From a virus: 28,176 bases of DNA. The notes beneath the pieces were generated by a model that saw only the letters and a list, made by a program, of their open reading frames with translations, had not been told where the DNA came from and searched no databases. The translations under genes were made by a program, and so were the position numbers. The stretch covers positions 1 through 28,176 of the IMG/VR virus record IMGVR_UViG_3300022929_000152, one strand, 5' to 3'. Position 1 is the first letter of the stretch. Each line of letters opens with the position of its first letter. Of the stretch, positions 2,395 through 9,080 are shown piece by piece.

Positions 2395-2712
2395 CTATTT
2401 TTTTCGTTTTAATGAATTAATTTCTTTCTTCAACTTCTCCATTTCTTGCATTATTTCTGTTGTGCCGCCAGGAGCAACAGGAGGATGCGACCAAGCTTCT
2501 AGATGATCGATTCTTTCAGCTAATATAGGATAATCGGATCTCCATTTAGCTTCTTTCTTTGCAATTTGGATATCGTACTTAACAGCAAGATATTCCATAA
2601 AGGCATCTAGCTTCTTTTGAAACCATATACCCATTCGGGTAGTAAGAAACCATTTACCAAAGGCAGAACCAAATACGCCAGTAATTGCAGCCCTAATTAA
2701 TAAAACCCACAT
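2395..2712 (-). CDS. small membrane-anchored conserved phage protein
   Basis: 105 residues with one hydrophobic N-terminal segment (about 2-25) and a long charged helical tail ending in a Lys-rich coiled coil (EMEKLKKEINSLKRKK). Its ATG overlaps the lipase stop as TAATG, and it lies in the lysozyme-lipase operon. A single N-terminal membrane anchor plus a soluble helical tail in a lysis cassette would suit a lysis accessory protein such as a holin-like or inner-membrane spanin-like factor. No family motif proves this. Function unknown. Confidence 0.72.
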   Translation of the reverse strand: MWVLLIRAAITGVFGSAFGKWFLTTRMGIWFQKKLDAFMEYLAVKYDIQIAKKEAKWRSDYPILAERIDHLEAWSHPPVAPGGTTEIMQEMEKLKKEINSLKRKK

Positions 2713-3428
2713 TAGTCGTTATCCTCTAGGTGCTTGCAGTATTCGTCCATACCATGATCACGAACTCCATCAAATACAGTACCATTTCTCCAAGCTGCTC
2801 TACGACCACGCCAACCATCTTTGAATCTCTGCCACCAAGTCATCTTACGGACATTACCATAGAAGTTGATATAATGTAATTCACCATGATGCTTGTACCA
2901 AAGCAAGGCAGGAGGAACAGAAGGAACGATATCGTTATTGTTTACAGTACGATAATGCGGCACTTTTAGTTCTTTGCACTTTGAAGGTGTAGCATTACGT
3001 GGACAACCGAATGTGTAGAGTGCTTCTGCCGTTGGATAATGGAAACAGAAAATAGAAGCAATCGCTGCTCCGAGACTGTGACCTGTTACATACACTGGAC
3101 GAGCTTTTCGACCCATGAGTTTCGCCACTTCGCCATGTACTTTGAGTTCTAACTTTTCGTACTCTTCATAGAAACCTTCGTGAAAGCCTCTTTCATGAGT
3201 TGCTTCCAAGTCAGCAAATACATCACTCTTTTCAGTTGGCTCAGTGCCACGGAATGCTACAGTGATTCGTTCTTTATTACCAAGCACATAAGCTTGTGCG
3301 CCTTCGATATCAAAAAACGTAATGGAAGTAAACCCAAGGGCTTTCCATTCTTTACGTACTTCTTTATCTAAGTCTTTATATGCTAATCTAGCAATACATG
3401 CGTGTGCGTGAAACTCATTCGAGATCAT
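2712..3428 (-). CDS. class 3 lipase (alpha/beta hydrolase)
   Basis: 238 residues. The nucleophile elbow GHSLG is at 116-120 with catalytic S118. NNNDIVPSVP at 163-172 supplies the probable Asp (D166), and H225 in RDHGMDEY is the probable catalytic His. The pattern and the upstream VAFRGTEP oxyanion-loop motif are typical of lipase class 3. No signal peptide is seen, so it would act in the cytoplasm or after membrane disruption. It sits directly after the lysozyme in the late operon, which suggests a role in attacking membrane lipid at lysis or in remodelling host lipids late in infection. The substrate is unknown. Confidence 0.85.
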   Translation of the reverse strand: MISNEFHAHACIARLAYKDLDKEVRKEWKALGFTSITFFDIEGAQAYVLGNKERITVAFRGTEPTEKSDVFADLEATHERGFHEGFYEEYEKLELKVHGEVAKLMGRKARPVYVTGHSLGAAIASIFCFHYPTAEALYTFGCPRNATPSKCKELKVPHYRTVNNNDIVPSVPPALLWYKHHGELHYINFYGNVRKMTWWQRFKDGWRGRRAAWRNGTVFDGVRDHGMDEYCKHLEDND

Positions 3429-4095: not shown

Positions 4096-4356
4096 TTACC
4101 CCATATATATTTTTTGTAAGTGCGTTTCAAATTCTTCTACTTTGGCTAATCGATTCGGCCAAAGGATATATTCCTTTTCAGGATTCTTTTTTAGATTCGT
4201 TAGTAGCGGAACGATAGAATTATAAAGACTATCTATCTTTGCTTGAAGTTGCTCTACATCAGATGATGTTTGTTGAAGCTGTGTAGAGGCTTGTTGAACT
4301 GCTTCTAATTCAGTTTCATCAACAGCAGTAAATCCAAAATCAAATATGTCTGTCAT
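4096..4356 (-). CDS. conserved phage protein, coiled coil
   Basis: 86 residues from the ATG at 4356, which overlaps the kinase stop as TGATG; a GTG one codon upstream is less likely. The middle (about 18-60) is a predicted coiled coil rich in Gln, Leu and Ser. The C-terminal EKEYILWPNRLAKVEEFE segment looks like the most conserved part. It is co-transcribed with the kinase and lysozyme. A structural or assembly role is possible; no function is assigned. Confidence 0.72.
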   Translation of the reverse strand: MTDIFDFGFTAVDETELEAVQQASTQLQQTSSDVEQLQAKIDSLYNSIVPLLTNLKKNPEKEYILWPNRLAKVEEFETHLQKIYMG

Positions 4357-5021
4357 CACGTATTCCTCTGTTTGTCAATCCACATTGTAGCTTGTTTACT
4401 TTGTGGTTCAGCTTTTGACCATGTCATCATTTTCTTATATACGCTTTGAGTAGCTCCGTCAAAATTAGATCCATCAGAATTATCTACTACATAGAATTTG
4501 CTCTTAAATAAGTTTTGAAACTTACCTATATTCTTTTGAACATCTTTCCACATAGCAGTAACCTGATCATCTGGCAGAGTCCTTTCGCGTTTAGCATTAC
4601 GAGCGAGTGCAGTATCTAAATCGGTATTTACAAATACCATTGCCACTTCGTATCCTAAAGCTCTAAGGTTAACTACTTGTCTTTCGATTTTGCTATAGTC
4701 TTTACCAGTACCATCAATAACTAATCCAAGTCGACCGCTTATAGCTAAGTCTAATTTCTTACCAGTAAGTTCTGATGCGCCTTTGCGAATCTGTTGACCT
4801 TGTGGAGAGAATATAGTTTCTGGATCTGGAGTAAGACCAGCTTTTTTCAAAGCAGCTTCGAATGCGTTATCAGAATTAATTAGCTTAAATCCTAATGCAG
4901 GTAAAGCAGTTTTTCCAACAATAAAGGACTTACCAGATCCTGGTCCTCCTGCTAGAAAAACAGCTTTAAATATTGCGGGGTCATTAACCCCTTCTTCTAA
5001 GTATTCACTAAAAGATAACAT
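4356..5021 (-). CDS. P-loop kinase (zeta-toxin/polynucleotide kinase-like)
   Basis: 221 residues. The Walker A motif GGPGSGKS is at 25-32, with LINSDNAFE following and LGLVIDGTGK as the second strand. The later FVNTDLDTALARNAKRERTL region resembles the lid arginines of zeta-toxin and polynucleotide kinase-like enzymes. The substrate (sugar nucleotide, nucleic acid end or nucleotide) cannot be decided. The N-terminus MLSFSEYLEEG resembles the T4 capsid-targeting sequence, with LEE|G as a possible prohead-protease site, so the protein may be packaged in the virion. It is the first gene after a perfect late promoter. Confidence 0.8.
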   Translation of the reverse strand: MLSFSEYLEEGVNDPAIFKAVFLAGGPGSGKSFIVGKTALPALGFKLINSDNAFEAALKKAGLTPDPETIFSPQGQQIRKGASELTGKKLDLAISGRLGLVIDGTGKDYSKIERQVVNLRALGYEVAMVFVNTDLDTALARNAKRERTLPDDQVTAMWKDVQKNIGKFQNLFKSKFYVVDNSDGSNFDGATQSVYKKMMTWSKAEPQSKQATMWIDKQRNT

Positions 5022-8202: not shown

Positions 8203-8433
8203 TTAATATTTGCCACCGGCATTACTTACAAAAGCATTCATTTCTTTGCAAAGCTCTTGAATATCCTGCATATTAGGATATGCTGGTAGATCCGGATACT
8301 CAACAGGGGTTCCTGCATCTTTCAATGCATGGTACCTGTCTATGACTTCATCCTTCTTTACATGATACTCGTCTACAAGTAAATTTTTTGCTTCCATAAG
8401 CATATTAAATCTTAGTTCATACGGATTTGACAT
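8203..8433 (-). CDS. conserved phage protein (MSNPYELRF family)
   Basis: 76 residues from the ATG at 8433, which has a Shine-Dalgarno AAGGAG. A longer frame to 8475 would run back into the RNA element. The protein begins MSNPYELRFNMLMEAKNLL, is helical and charged, and ends VSNAGGKY. I recall short proteins with this start in many T4-like marine phages, without a known function. It lies between the two copies of the pseudoknot RNA element. Confidence 0.78.
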   Translation of the reverse strand: MSNPYELRFNMLMEAKNLLVDEYHVKKDEVIDRYHALKDAGTPVEYPDLPAYPNMQDIQELCKEMNAFVSNAGGKY

Positions 8434-8460
8434 ATTTGTCTCCTTGTGTGTTGTGTGTGT

Positions 8461-8512
8461 TAAGCTTGGGCCCATTTGGTTATAAGGCGGTGCCCATACC
8501 CCATCTAGCTTA
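8461..8512 (-). ncRNA. structured RNA element, copy A (pseudoknot), at the tmRNA 3' side
   Basis: The outer stem is TAAGCT (8507-8512) with AGCTTA (8461-8466). GGT (8498-8500) pairs with ACC (8489-8491), and the enclosed TGGG (8493-8496) pairs with CCCA (8467-8470). The 34-nt core 8467-8500 matches copy B except at position 9 of the core, where C replaces T; both can pair with the opposing G. The outer stems of A and B differ in sequence but each pairs. The stem overlaps the tmRNA tag stop codon, so it excludes the tmRNA hairpin at 8504-8522. It may be the tmRNA's own pseudoknot or a leader element of the downstream gene. Confidence 0.6.
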
Positions 8513-8696
8513 TGCCGCTAGAGCGTAAACATTATCGTTTGCGTTTATTTTAATTTAGTTTTTACGTCTACTCTGACGATTCTCCATAAGTCTTCAGTCG
8601 TCTGTCGAATCTAAAACGCCCCCATATGTTTTATTGGTGGAGGCGAGGGGAGTTGCACCCCTGTCCAAACTTCCTATCTCTTACTTCAACGAATTC
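8504..8696 (-). ncRNA. ssrA: circularly permuted (two-piece) tmRNA
   Basis: Read on the minus strand, the acceptor half comes first (8696 to 8635) and ends with a T-arm (stem AGGGG/CCCCT, 7-nt loop TGCAACT at 8651-8657) and encoded CCA (8635-8637). An 11-nt spacer (8624-8634) follows, then the 5' half starting GGGGGCG at 8623 with the TTAGATTCGAC signature. GGGGGCG pairs with CGCCTCC (8639-8645) over 7 bp, and the third pair is G-U, the alanine identity element of tmRNA. The tag frame at 8510-8542 encodes ANDNVYALAA then TAA, compared with ANDENYALAA in E. coli. A hairpin (8504-8509 with 8517-8522) holds the stop codon. The outer ends of both pieces are uncertain; the coding piece may extend to 8467. 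It would rescue stalled ribosomes and tag proteins for degradation. Confidence 0.9.
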
Positions 8697-9080
8697 TTAG
8701 TCTTCGAATGTATGCCTAAACAATCGTCCATTATACTCAAAGGTAACTGTTTCACCTCTTTGTACTTGTATCGGAACTTCTTCACAAAACTCTTTCTGAA
8801 CAATCCTGGATTGAGCATTATTCTTAGCAACGTTAGAACCGATAATAGCTCCAGCAATTGTAGCTGCTGTTTTACCAGAACCGTTTCCAACTTGATGTCC
8901 TAAGACACCGCCAATGACTCCACCCACTATACCTGATGTTGCGGTATTATCTACGAAGACATCTCTAACTACGCATTGCTTCTGATAAATCGTAACATAT
9001 CTCGGTGTTGTACTTAGCACAACCACATCAGCAAAAGCAAATGTTGGTAAGAGTGCTCCGAGTAAAAGAAATTGTTTCAT
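8697..9080 (-). CDS. secreted glycine-zipper 2TM-type protein
   Basis: 127 residues. A signal peptide (1-17, cleaved after FAFA) has no lipobox cysteine. Residues about 48-85 are Gly/Ala-rich (GIVGGVIGGVLGHQVGNGSG, then TIAGAIIGSNVA), the pattern of glycine-zipper 2TM envelope proteins of the SlyB/Rick_17kDa type. The C-terminal part is a small beta domain. It would lie in the periplasm or outer membrane. Strong ribosome site AGGAG. Host-derived envelope proteins of this type are common in Proteobacteria, so it may be acquired. The acceptor half of the tmRNA begins directly after its stop. Confidence 0.78.
   Translation of the reverse strand: MKQFLLLGALLPTFAFADVVVLSTTPRYVTIYQKQCVVRDVFVDNTATSGIVGGVIGGVLGHQVGNGSGKTAATIAGAIIGSNVAKNNAQSRIVQKEFCEEVPIQVQRGETVTFEYNGRLFRHTFED

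Follow-up and report, generated by a model that had tools for sequence, protein, structure and literature searches.

A circularly permuted, two-piece tmRNA gene in a T4-like viral contig, and candidate small protein genes in the intervening segments of its phage relatives

The tmRNAs of mycobacteriophages such as Bxz1 and of Bacillus phage G are one-piece molecules and represent a different gene form from the one considered here. Like the gene of the window—the whole 28,176-base stretch of DNA that was analysed—these tmRNAs from Bxz1, other mycobacteriophages and phage G are phage-encoded ssrA products (PMC4131195). The gene of the window belongs to a known but infrequent kind, the two-piece tmRNAs of marine phages described with Melnitz, a marine Methylophilales phage (MZ577095–MZ577098) assigned to Kyanoviridae in its record, which holds a two-piece tmRNA like that of the window (PMC9004378). 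In that report, 402 of 18,146 phage genomes yielded 133 unique tmRNA structures, of which 53 are two-piece, and a permuted tmRNA was present in 17 of the 47 contigs clustered with Melnitz. The 2025 tmRNA database counts 79 unique bacteriophage sequences among 97,179 and holds 11,946 permuted ones (PMC11915505); beside these, the window contributes one further phage copy that is well supported.

The minus strand of the window, an IMG/VR virus record, holds a complete, circularly permuted tmRNA gene at 8696–8467. ARAGORN called a permuted tmRNA at 8419–8727 (minus strand) with the tag ANDNVYALAA, and the Rfam model RF04321 (tmRNA_permuted) matched 8694–8510 (minus strand) over the full model, with 112.8 bits (gathering cut-off 47) and an E-value of 1.5e-21; RF01850 (beta_tmRNA) reached 89.2 bits (gathering cut-off 84) over 8754–8461 of the window. 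The parts follow each other in permuted order, the acceptor piece with the T arm and CCA (8696–8635) preceding the tag-coding piece (8623–8467):

8635–8696, minus strand: acceptor piece of the pre-tmRNA (ARAGORN, Rfam RF04321, covariation)
8646–8662, minus strand: T arm, AGGGGTGCAACTCCCCT (sequence placement, T-stem covariation)
8624–8634, minus strand: intervening segment (ITS) of 11 nt, without an ORF (sequence placement)
8467–8623, minus strand: coding piece (Rfam, comparative pairing; 3′ end inferred from the pseudoknot)
8510–8542, minus strand: tag reading frame ANDNVYALAA, then TAA (ARAGORN, sequence placement)
8505–8521, minus strand: hairpin CTAGC-GGCATAA-GCTAG with the stop codon in its loop (sequence placement)
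8467–8502, minus strand: PK2-like 3′ pseudoknot, outer stem UGGGC/GCCCA, inner stem GGU/ACC inferred (beta_tmRNA model match)
8697–9080, minus strand: upstream gene for a glycine-zipper protein (PF05433, E 6.4e-8)
8203–8433, minus strand: downstream small ORF with Shine-Dalgarno site AAGGAG and ATG at 8433 (sequence)

The acceptor piece, first in the transcript, comprises the 5′ half of helix 2, the T arm, the 3′ acceptor strand and an encoded CCA; the coding piece comprises the 5′ acceptor strand GGGGGCG, helix 2, the tag frame and the 3′ pseudoknot. Between both pieces, the acceptor stem CGCCTCC/GGGGGCG is paired at 7/7 positions with G3-U70, and the tag frame has a degradation-type end followed directly by a stop. 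The stop codon of the upstream glycine-zipper gene abuts the acceptor piece, beside a GAATTC, and given this contact, cotranscription of the tmRNA with the upstream gene is likely. Downstream, a longer reading of the small ORF (8203–8475) had no match in Pfam or PHROG.

An earlier note, made from the letters of the window, had proposed most of this arrangement. Its permuted tmRNA is borne out by ARAGORN and by RF04321 (112.8 bits vs a cut-off of 47), the full-model match over the cut-off being also the outcome of the covariance-model check that it had named. The tag returned by ARAGORN is the one it had read (frame 8542–8510, minus strand), the 11-nt spacer between the halves corresponds to the ITS at 8634–8624 (minus strand), the 7-bp acceptor stem with G3-U70 is found in the window (7/7) and likewise in 36/36 distinct relatives, and the stop of the tag frame lies, as described there, inside a hairpin (8521–8505), in its loop. 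The interval given for the gene, 8504–8696, takes in nearly all of it but leaves the 3′ pseudoknot (8502–8467) outside, and the strand, for which the note gave no indication, is the minus one.

Relatives were collected by scanning viral contigs with a 15-mer from the acceptor piece, which gave 84 stretches. In these and in the other related loci, ARAGORN called permuted tmRNAs in 62 loci, 41 of them distinct when taken with their flanks, the window's included. Dropping L068, which lacks the 15-mer, left 40 rows, 37 of them distinct over both pieces and 36 not the window's; the 40-row set, which includes the window's copy and three repeats, gives the same picture as the 36-sequence set. Every one of the 36 distinct relatives has standard pairs throughout the seven positions of the acceptor stem, and double changes occur at pairs 4, 5, 6 and 7 in 2, 19, 11 and 3 sequences, respectively. 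G3-U70 is present in 36/36 and, being invariant, is uninformative on covariation; CCA is encoded in 35/36, and nine of the 36 share the 11-nt length of the ITS. For the inter-piece helix 2 (GUAAG/CUUAU), 179 of 180 cells hold a standard pair, and three of its pairs show double changes, in 8, 8 and 7 sequences; the helix-2 segments AUUC/GAAU and GUUU/AGAC are standard in all 40 rows, without double changes. The T stem, which shows double changes, is standard in 40/40 rows at four pairs and in 39/39 at the fifth.

The remaining helices are kept less strictly. The five pairs of the stop hairpin are standard in 30/38, 31/38, 35/38, 38/38 and 28/35 rows, and the PK1-like hairpin pairs in 15, 39, 34 and 39 of the 40 rows. 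For the 3′ pseudoknot, the outer pairs are standard in 24/39 (the outermost), 36/39, 36/39, 34/39 and 33/38 rows, four of them with double changes, and the inner pairs in 37, 38 and 33 of the 40 rows, with no double changes. Directly 3′ of the pseudoknot stem, L082, L083 and L096 have a run of T, and in these relatives the stem may double as a transcription terminator. The acceptor piece, ITS, PK1 region, tag and 3′ pseudoknot combine in many ways among the tmRNAs, and these mixed combinations suggest recombination within the permuted tmRNA gene.

The earlier note had named an SmpB/AlaRS-compatible fold of both halves together as a check. When the acceptor piece was cofolded with the first 62 nt of the coding piece, the minimum free energy (MFE) structure had the expected acceptor-stem, T-stem and helix-2 pairs; with the whole coding piece, the acceptor stem was kept in the MFE structure but the expected helix 2 was lost. 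The cofold energy of −34.5, compared with a mononucleotide-shuffle mean of −30.7 (sd 3.5), was reached by 44 of 300 shuffles. The cofold energy is thus weak evidence for the tmRNA fold, and the comparative pairing is strong evidence.

Judging from its genes, the window contig comes from a marine, T4-like (Kyanoviridae-like) phage, in agreement with the phage location claimed by the earlier note. It is an IMG/VR virus record, and the neighbours of the tmRNA match PHROG families for PhoH, an exonuclease, a ClpP-like protease, an FmdB-like regulator, NrdA, NrdB and a cytidyltransferase. A contig of 53.7 kb, whose ClpP-like protein is 100% identical to that of the window, carries a T4-like DNA polymerase that is closest to Phage C48C1 (Kyanoviridae; 56.9% identical over its length), with cyanophages next in the match list at 51–52%; the baseplate protein of the relative G002 matches cyanophages over one third of its length. 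Elsewhere in the window are found a Zeta-toxin/kinase-like ATPase (4356–5021; PF06414, E 1.2e-11), a class 3 lipase (2712–3428; PF01764, E 3.6e-17) and two adjacent large ORFs (1–2381) that have a CxxCH motif close to the start and match nothing in Pfam; G002 (L169) has a similar pair. Through the ClpP-like gene, 80 related loci were kept and the first 60 scanned with ARAGORN. A permuted tmRNA was found in 11 of these 60, all within the 12 most similar (L002–L013), and was absent from the stretches scanned, many of them fragments, of the other 49, including all 48 less similar loci. A one-piece tmRNA with an odd tag was called by ARAGORN in a 128-kb viral contig (L065, 15825–16201).

The earlier note had also taken the permutation as a hint of an alphaproteobacterial host and had proposed the alphaproteobacterial Rfam model as a check; the hint was not supported. 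The best model of the tmRNA clan for the window is not RF01849 but the betaproteobacterial RF01850, which is over its cut-off by a small margin, and the relatives are mixed: beta is the best clan model and over its cut-off in L068, L110, L137 and L013, best and below the cut-off in six of the eight loci of one comparison, and alpha is the best in L082, L212, L214, L221, L226, L239 and L240. Among 398 sampled Pseudomonadota genomes, only local matches of 32–44 nt to the window tmRNA were found, in 18 of the 398 at E ≤ 0.001, and the NrdA search returned, among bacterial genomes, only two Midichloria contigs (46–49% identity). Genome DNA search, NrdA (compared with phages and bacterial genomes) and the Rfam clan models gave no consistent host; on these comparisons, a permuted tmRNA by itself does not reveal the host. 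SmpB was found in none of 18 related phage records, which are possibly fragments, with 10 of 14 control genomes positive, so that the gene would depend on the SmpB of the host.

Taken together, the gene is very likely a functional phage ssrA of the permuted two-piece form, predicted to carry out ordinary trans-translation with the host machinery. Direct support is provided by the sequence, the architecture, the pairing under selection, the conserved degradation-type tag and the phage context; the processing, charging, use of host SmpB and benefit to the phage would be as follows. The transcript, probably read through from the upstream gene, would be cut by the tRNA-processing enzymes of the host at two places, 3′ of CCA and 5′ of G1 of the coding piece; the 11-nt ITS would be discarded, and the acceptor stem and helix 2 would hold the two pieces together. 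The host AlaRS would charge the molecule with alanine via G3-U70, and the host SmpB and EF-Tu would bring it to ribosomes stalled on broken mRNAs during infection. Addition of ANDNVYALAA would then lead to degradation of the product by host proteases, returning the ribosome and amino acids to phage protein synthesis. Such a function would be useful to the phage, as truncated mRNAs arise during infection. Of 41 distinct copies, counting that of the window, 40 have a tag with the end LAA, which fits degradation; the exception, L148, has LTA.

The same tag would also suit a working tmRNA whose main use is the selective degradation of host proteins for amino acids early in infection. This is unlikely for the window, since its tag is of the degradation type but nothing in the sequence confers selectivity, and tmRNA acts on stalled ribosomes irrespective of the protein being made. 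Selective degradation of host proteins has been proposed for the tmRNA of Melnitz (PMC9004378). A decoy, that is, a phage RNA that titrates the host SmpB or blocks host trans-translation instead of performing it, has been suggested for the tRNA-like-domain-only tmRNA type of mycobacteriophage DS6A (PMC4131195). Such a role would agree with the lack of an own SmpB in the 18 phage records searched, and a tRNA-like domain alone would suffice for it; the window, however, retains a complete tag frame together with the stop hairpin and the 3′ pseudoknot, and the LAA end is kept in 40 of the 41 distinct copies, which makes a decoy very improbable here. That the gene is a passenger or remnant of a host ssrA, acquired by imprecise excision or misbinning, is hardly credible: prophages do integrate at ssrA, and ssrA fragments do occur in prophages (PMC9004378), but neither piece is damaged, the two show covariation across 36 distinct phage copies, the neighbours are T4-like phage genes, close relatives have the tmRNA too, and only local matches were found among the 398 bacterial genomes.

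The ITSs of the relatives vary widely. A strict parser (7/7 acceptor pairs, G3-U70 and a 5-bp T stem) yielded 55 distinct permuted tmRNAs, the window and Melnitz included, with ITSs of 4–150 nt. Five families of small ORFs—zinc-finger, M, B, V and W—occur in the ITSs of relatives, all of them with codon-level purifying selection, and in four of the five a start codon and a Shine-Dalgarno-like site lie within about 20 nt of CCA. The zinc-finger family occupies seven different ITSs in 8 of the 55 tmRNAs (L008, L010, L012, L013, L082, L101, L137 and L161), each of 98–104 nt and reading as a CxxC...CxxxC peptide. There is no usual start codon in the ITS ahead of the conserved part; the start would fall in the acceptor piece, at a TTG or ATG that is also tmRNA and that has no clear ribosome-binding site ahead of it. 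The peptide scan of viral contigs, which as in the other families reaches close relatives only, found 9 relatives, all of them (9/9) with one of the seven ITSs at the match.

Family M is exemplified by Melnitz, where GGAG-AAGTAT-ATG just after CCA opens MFKWLSKTRLVV...; the ORF of the family reads MFKWLSKTRLVVITRDYFRERNRKADAKIPKYLSG..., and other members read MRQWLLNLK.... Its loci are L163 (Melnitz, MZ577097), L211–L228, L285, L299, L313 and L390. In the four Melnitz GenBank records the ORF lies under the annotated SsrA feature alone (45984–46436 in MZ577097), with no CDS at this place in the feature table of MZ577097. The peptide scan found 21 relatives, 18 of them with the ORF in the ITS and three (L229–L231) matched in the coding piece only; L229 has family W in its ITS instead. 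Family B, with a Shine-Dalgarno site and ATG after CCA, encodes the peptide MRI.MKGGDEYDALSRKSK...; in L194, AAAGGAG-TTTTT-ATG opens this basic peptide. It is found in the ITSs of L194, L232, L233 and L239–L241 and stands alone in L234–L238, and its scan gave 10 relatives, five with the ORF in ITSs and five with it elsewhere on its own. Because homologues exist outside tmRNA genes, the ITS seems, from these sequences, to have captured a real gene in this case.

Family V (MFDRLTEFFIKLF...) is held by the ITSs of L298, L308, L310, L339, L341 and L367, and family W (MWIYKCDAG...) by those of L229 and L335. Other small ORFs are found in the ITSs of L309, L363 and L378, of L316 and L394, and of L315, L318, L319, L329 and L387; taken together with V and W, several of these peptides are hydrophobic. 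A C-terminal (K/R)YL(S/G) motif is common to M, V and L318, and families M and V may be related. All 10 ORF-bearing loci tested exceed the Rfam tmRNA_permuted cut-off. The zinc-finger and nine further ITS peptides had no Pfam match over the curated cut-off. The L319 peptide, from a 238-nt ITS with a TTG start, matched DUF2061 weakly (E 0.0012, below the Pfam cut-off) and, in a PHROG search with no cut-off, phrog_37232 (unknown; E 0.0041); a stand-alone B homologue matched phrog_16066 (unknown; E 8.1e-5) in the same kind of search. In 50,697 phage isolate records, family M was found in the four Melnitz records only, the zinc-finger gave one weak match (E 0.9), family B nothing at E ≤ 0.01, and families V and W nothing at E ≤ 1. 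A tRNA-like nature considered for the ITSs of L119 (the same ITS type as L006), L068 and L098 was discarded, no Rfam tRNA match being obtained at E ≤ 5.

The coding character of these ORFs was assessed by the mean BLOSUM62 score at differing codons in the ORF frame, compared with column shuffles that ignore relatedness. The score was 2.97 for the zinc-finger (7 sequences), 3.01 for M (11), 3.17 for B with its stand-alone homologues (7) and 2.96 for B in ITSs only (3), and none of 2000 shuffles reached any of these values; the same holds for V (5 sequences; 0/2000), and for W, with two sequences only, 2 of 2000 did. Differences by codon position were 5/1/14 between L082 and L137 (zinc-finger) and 8/6/19 between Melnitz and L224 (M), and pN/pS in the pairs listed ranged from 0.13 to 0.69 for the zinc-finger, from 0.19 to 0.39 for M and from 0.04 to 0.29 for B. 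As negative controls, the 67-nt and 96–99-nt ITS classes gave no coding signal, their scores being reached by 972 and 874 of 1000 shuffles, respectively; the 84-nt class has too little variation for the test. ORF hints in the 20-nt ITSs and in L006/L119 were given no weight, and the best frame of the 81-nt class was reached by 217 of 1000 shuffles.

A census that did not select for ORFs was obtained with a 20-base pattern of the coding piece, which matched at least 120 stretches. Among the 120 listed, 111 were parsed and 9 were not, giving 100 distinct tmRNAs with 91 different ITSs of 14–264 nt. Of 69 ITSs of at least 60 nt and without N among these matches, 18 hold an ORF of at least 28 codons that opens with an ATG behind a Shine-Dalgarno-like site, whereas 300 dinucleotide shuffles gave 0.63 on average and never more than 3; for the first 80 census loci, the figures are 12 of 47 ITSs against a mean of 0.44 and a maximum of 3. 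The Shine-Dalgarno patterns (GGAC and GGAT included) were widened after viewing the data and applied equally to the shuffles. The 18 ORFs among the matches listed are not independent, comprising four of family M, five of V, one of W, three of the L309 type, two of the L316 type, and L318, L329 and L387. A stem of at least 7 bp near the ends closes 34 of 35 and 62 of 65 ITSs of at least 28 nt, vs 11% of mononucleotide shuffles, and the ORFs lie largely in the loop of this stem. In L194 and L335, the closing stem includes the ribosome-binding site of the ORF.

These results argue for the ITS of phage permuted tmRNAs as a nesting site for small protein genes, a probable arrangement in which one transcript would yield both the two-piece tmRNA and a predicted protein. 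A small phage protein would then be made from the ITS piece thought to be waste. As several of the ORF frames have no stop before the coding piece, the cuts that mature the tmRNA would turn these ORFs into nonstop mRNAs. The gene would thereby supply a substrate for its own tmRNA, and this arrangement may act as a feedback device. That all ITS ORFs are nonstop mRNAs was ruled out, because among the census matches listed 8 of the 18 ORFs reach a stop within the ITS (L299, L309, L313, L318, L329, L335, L363 and L378), as do the family M ORFs of L224–L228; 10 of the 18 do not have a stop before the coding piece, so the nonstop idea fits a part of them only. Under the nested-gene interpretation, the window copy would have lost its ITS cargo or would never have had one.

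Searches of the openly licensed literature yielded no account of protein genes within the ITS of permuted tmRNAs, and a small protein gene at this place appears to be undescribed so far. If true, it would be a new arrangement for a two-piece RNA gene to hold a protein gene in its discarded spacer, and ribosome rescue would be tied to the making of small phage proteins. With Melnitz in culture, the nested ITS gene is directly testable.

Bacterial permuted tmRNAs served as a contrast. Of the 398 sampled Pseudomonadota, 333 match the permuted model at E ≤ 0.001, a level that includes weak matches of one-piece tmRNAs according to control genomes, and 157 exceed the cut-off. Among the best 30 bacterial loci, 22 were parsed and 8 were not, 21 of the ITSs being 5–47 nt long and one 115 nt. 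Three of seven loci picked for their long matches, the 115-nt case again among them, were parsed, with ITSs of 126, 58 and 115 nt; an ATG with a Shine-Dalgarno site and ORF was found in none of these three. The 126-nt ITS is open from a TTG without a Shine-Dalgarno site for 46 codons into the coding piece; this bacterial sample is small and biased to high scores.

With regard to the known systems, the parsing yielded two sets of distinct permuted tmRNAs, of 55 and 100 members, which may overlap and come nearly all from IMG/VR viral contigs. The permuted ssrA of Melnitz lies near the genes of PhoH and a PDDEXK nuclease and is accepted by the same strict parser as that of the window. They differ in the ITS, 142 nt with an ORF in Melnitz vs 11 nt without one in the window; in the best clan model, alpha in the Melnitz-like L212, L214, L221 and L226 and beta in the window; and in the glutamine riboswitch found 3′ of the tmRNA in the Melnitz-like L212, L214 and L221, with none over the cut-off in the window. 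The alphaproteobacterial permuted tmRNA (RF01849) has the same permuted architecture, although it is not the best clan model for the window. The betaproteobacterial one (RF01850) is, with the 3′ pseudoknot included in the match, but it exceeds the gathering cut-off by only 5 bits, the last hairpin of the model is missing in the window, and only short local matches to the window occur among the 398 sampled Pseudomonadota. For the ORF-bearing ITSs, the nearest counterpart is a permuted tmRNA from a nominally archaeal metagenome assembly, called unique in PMC11915505, with a tRNA-Ala gene in its intervening sequence: like the relatives described here, it carries a gene inside the ITS, in its case a tRNA, whereas theirs are protein-like ORFs.
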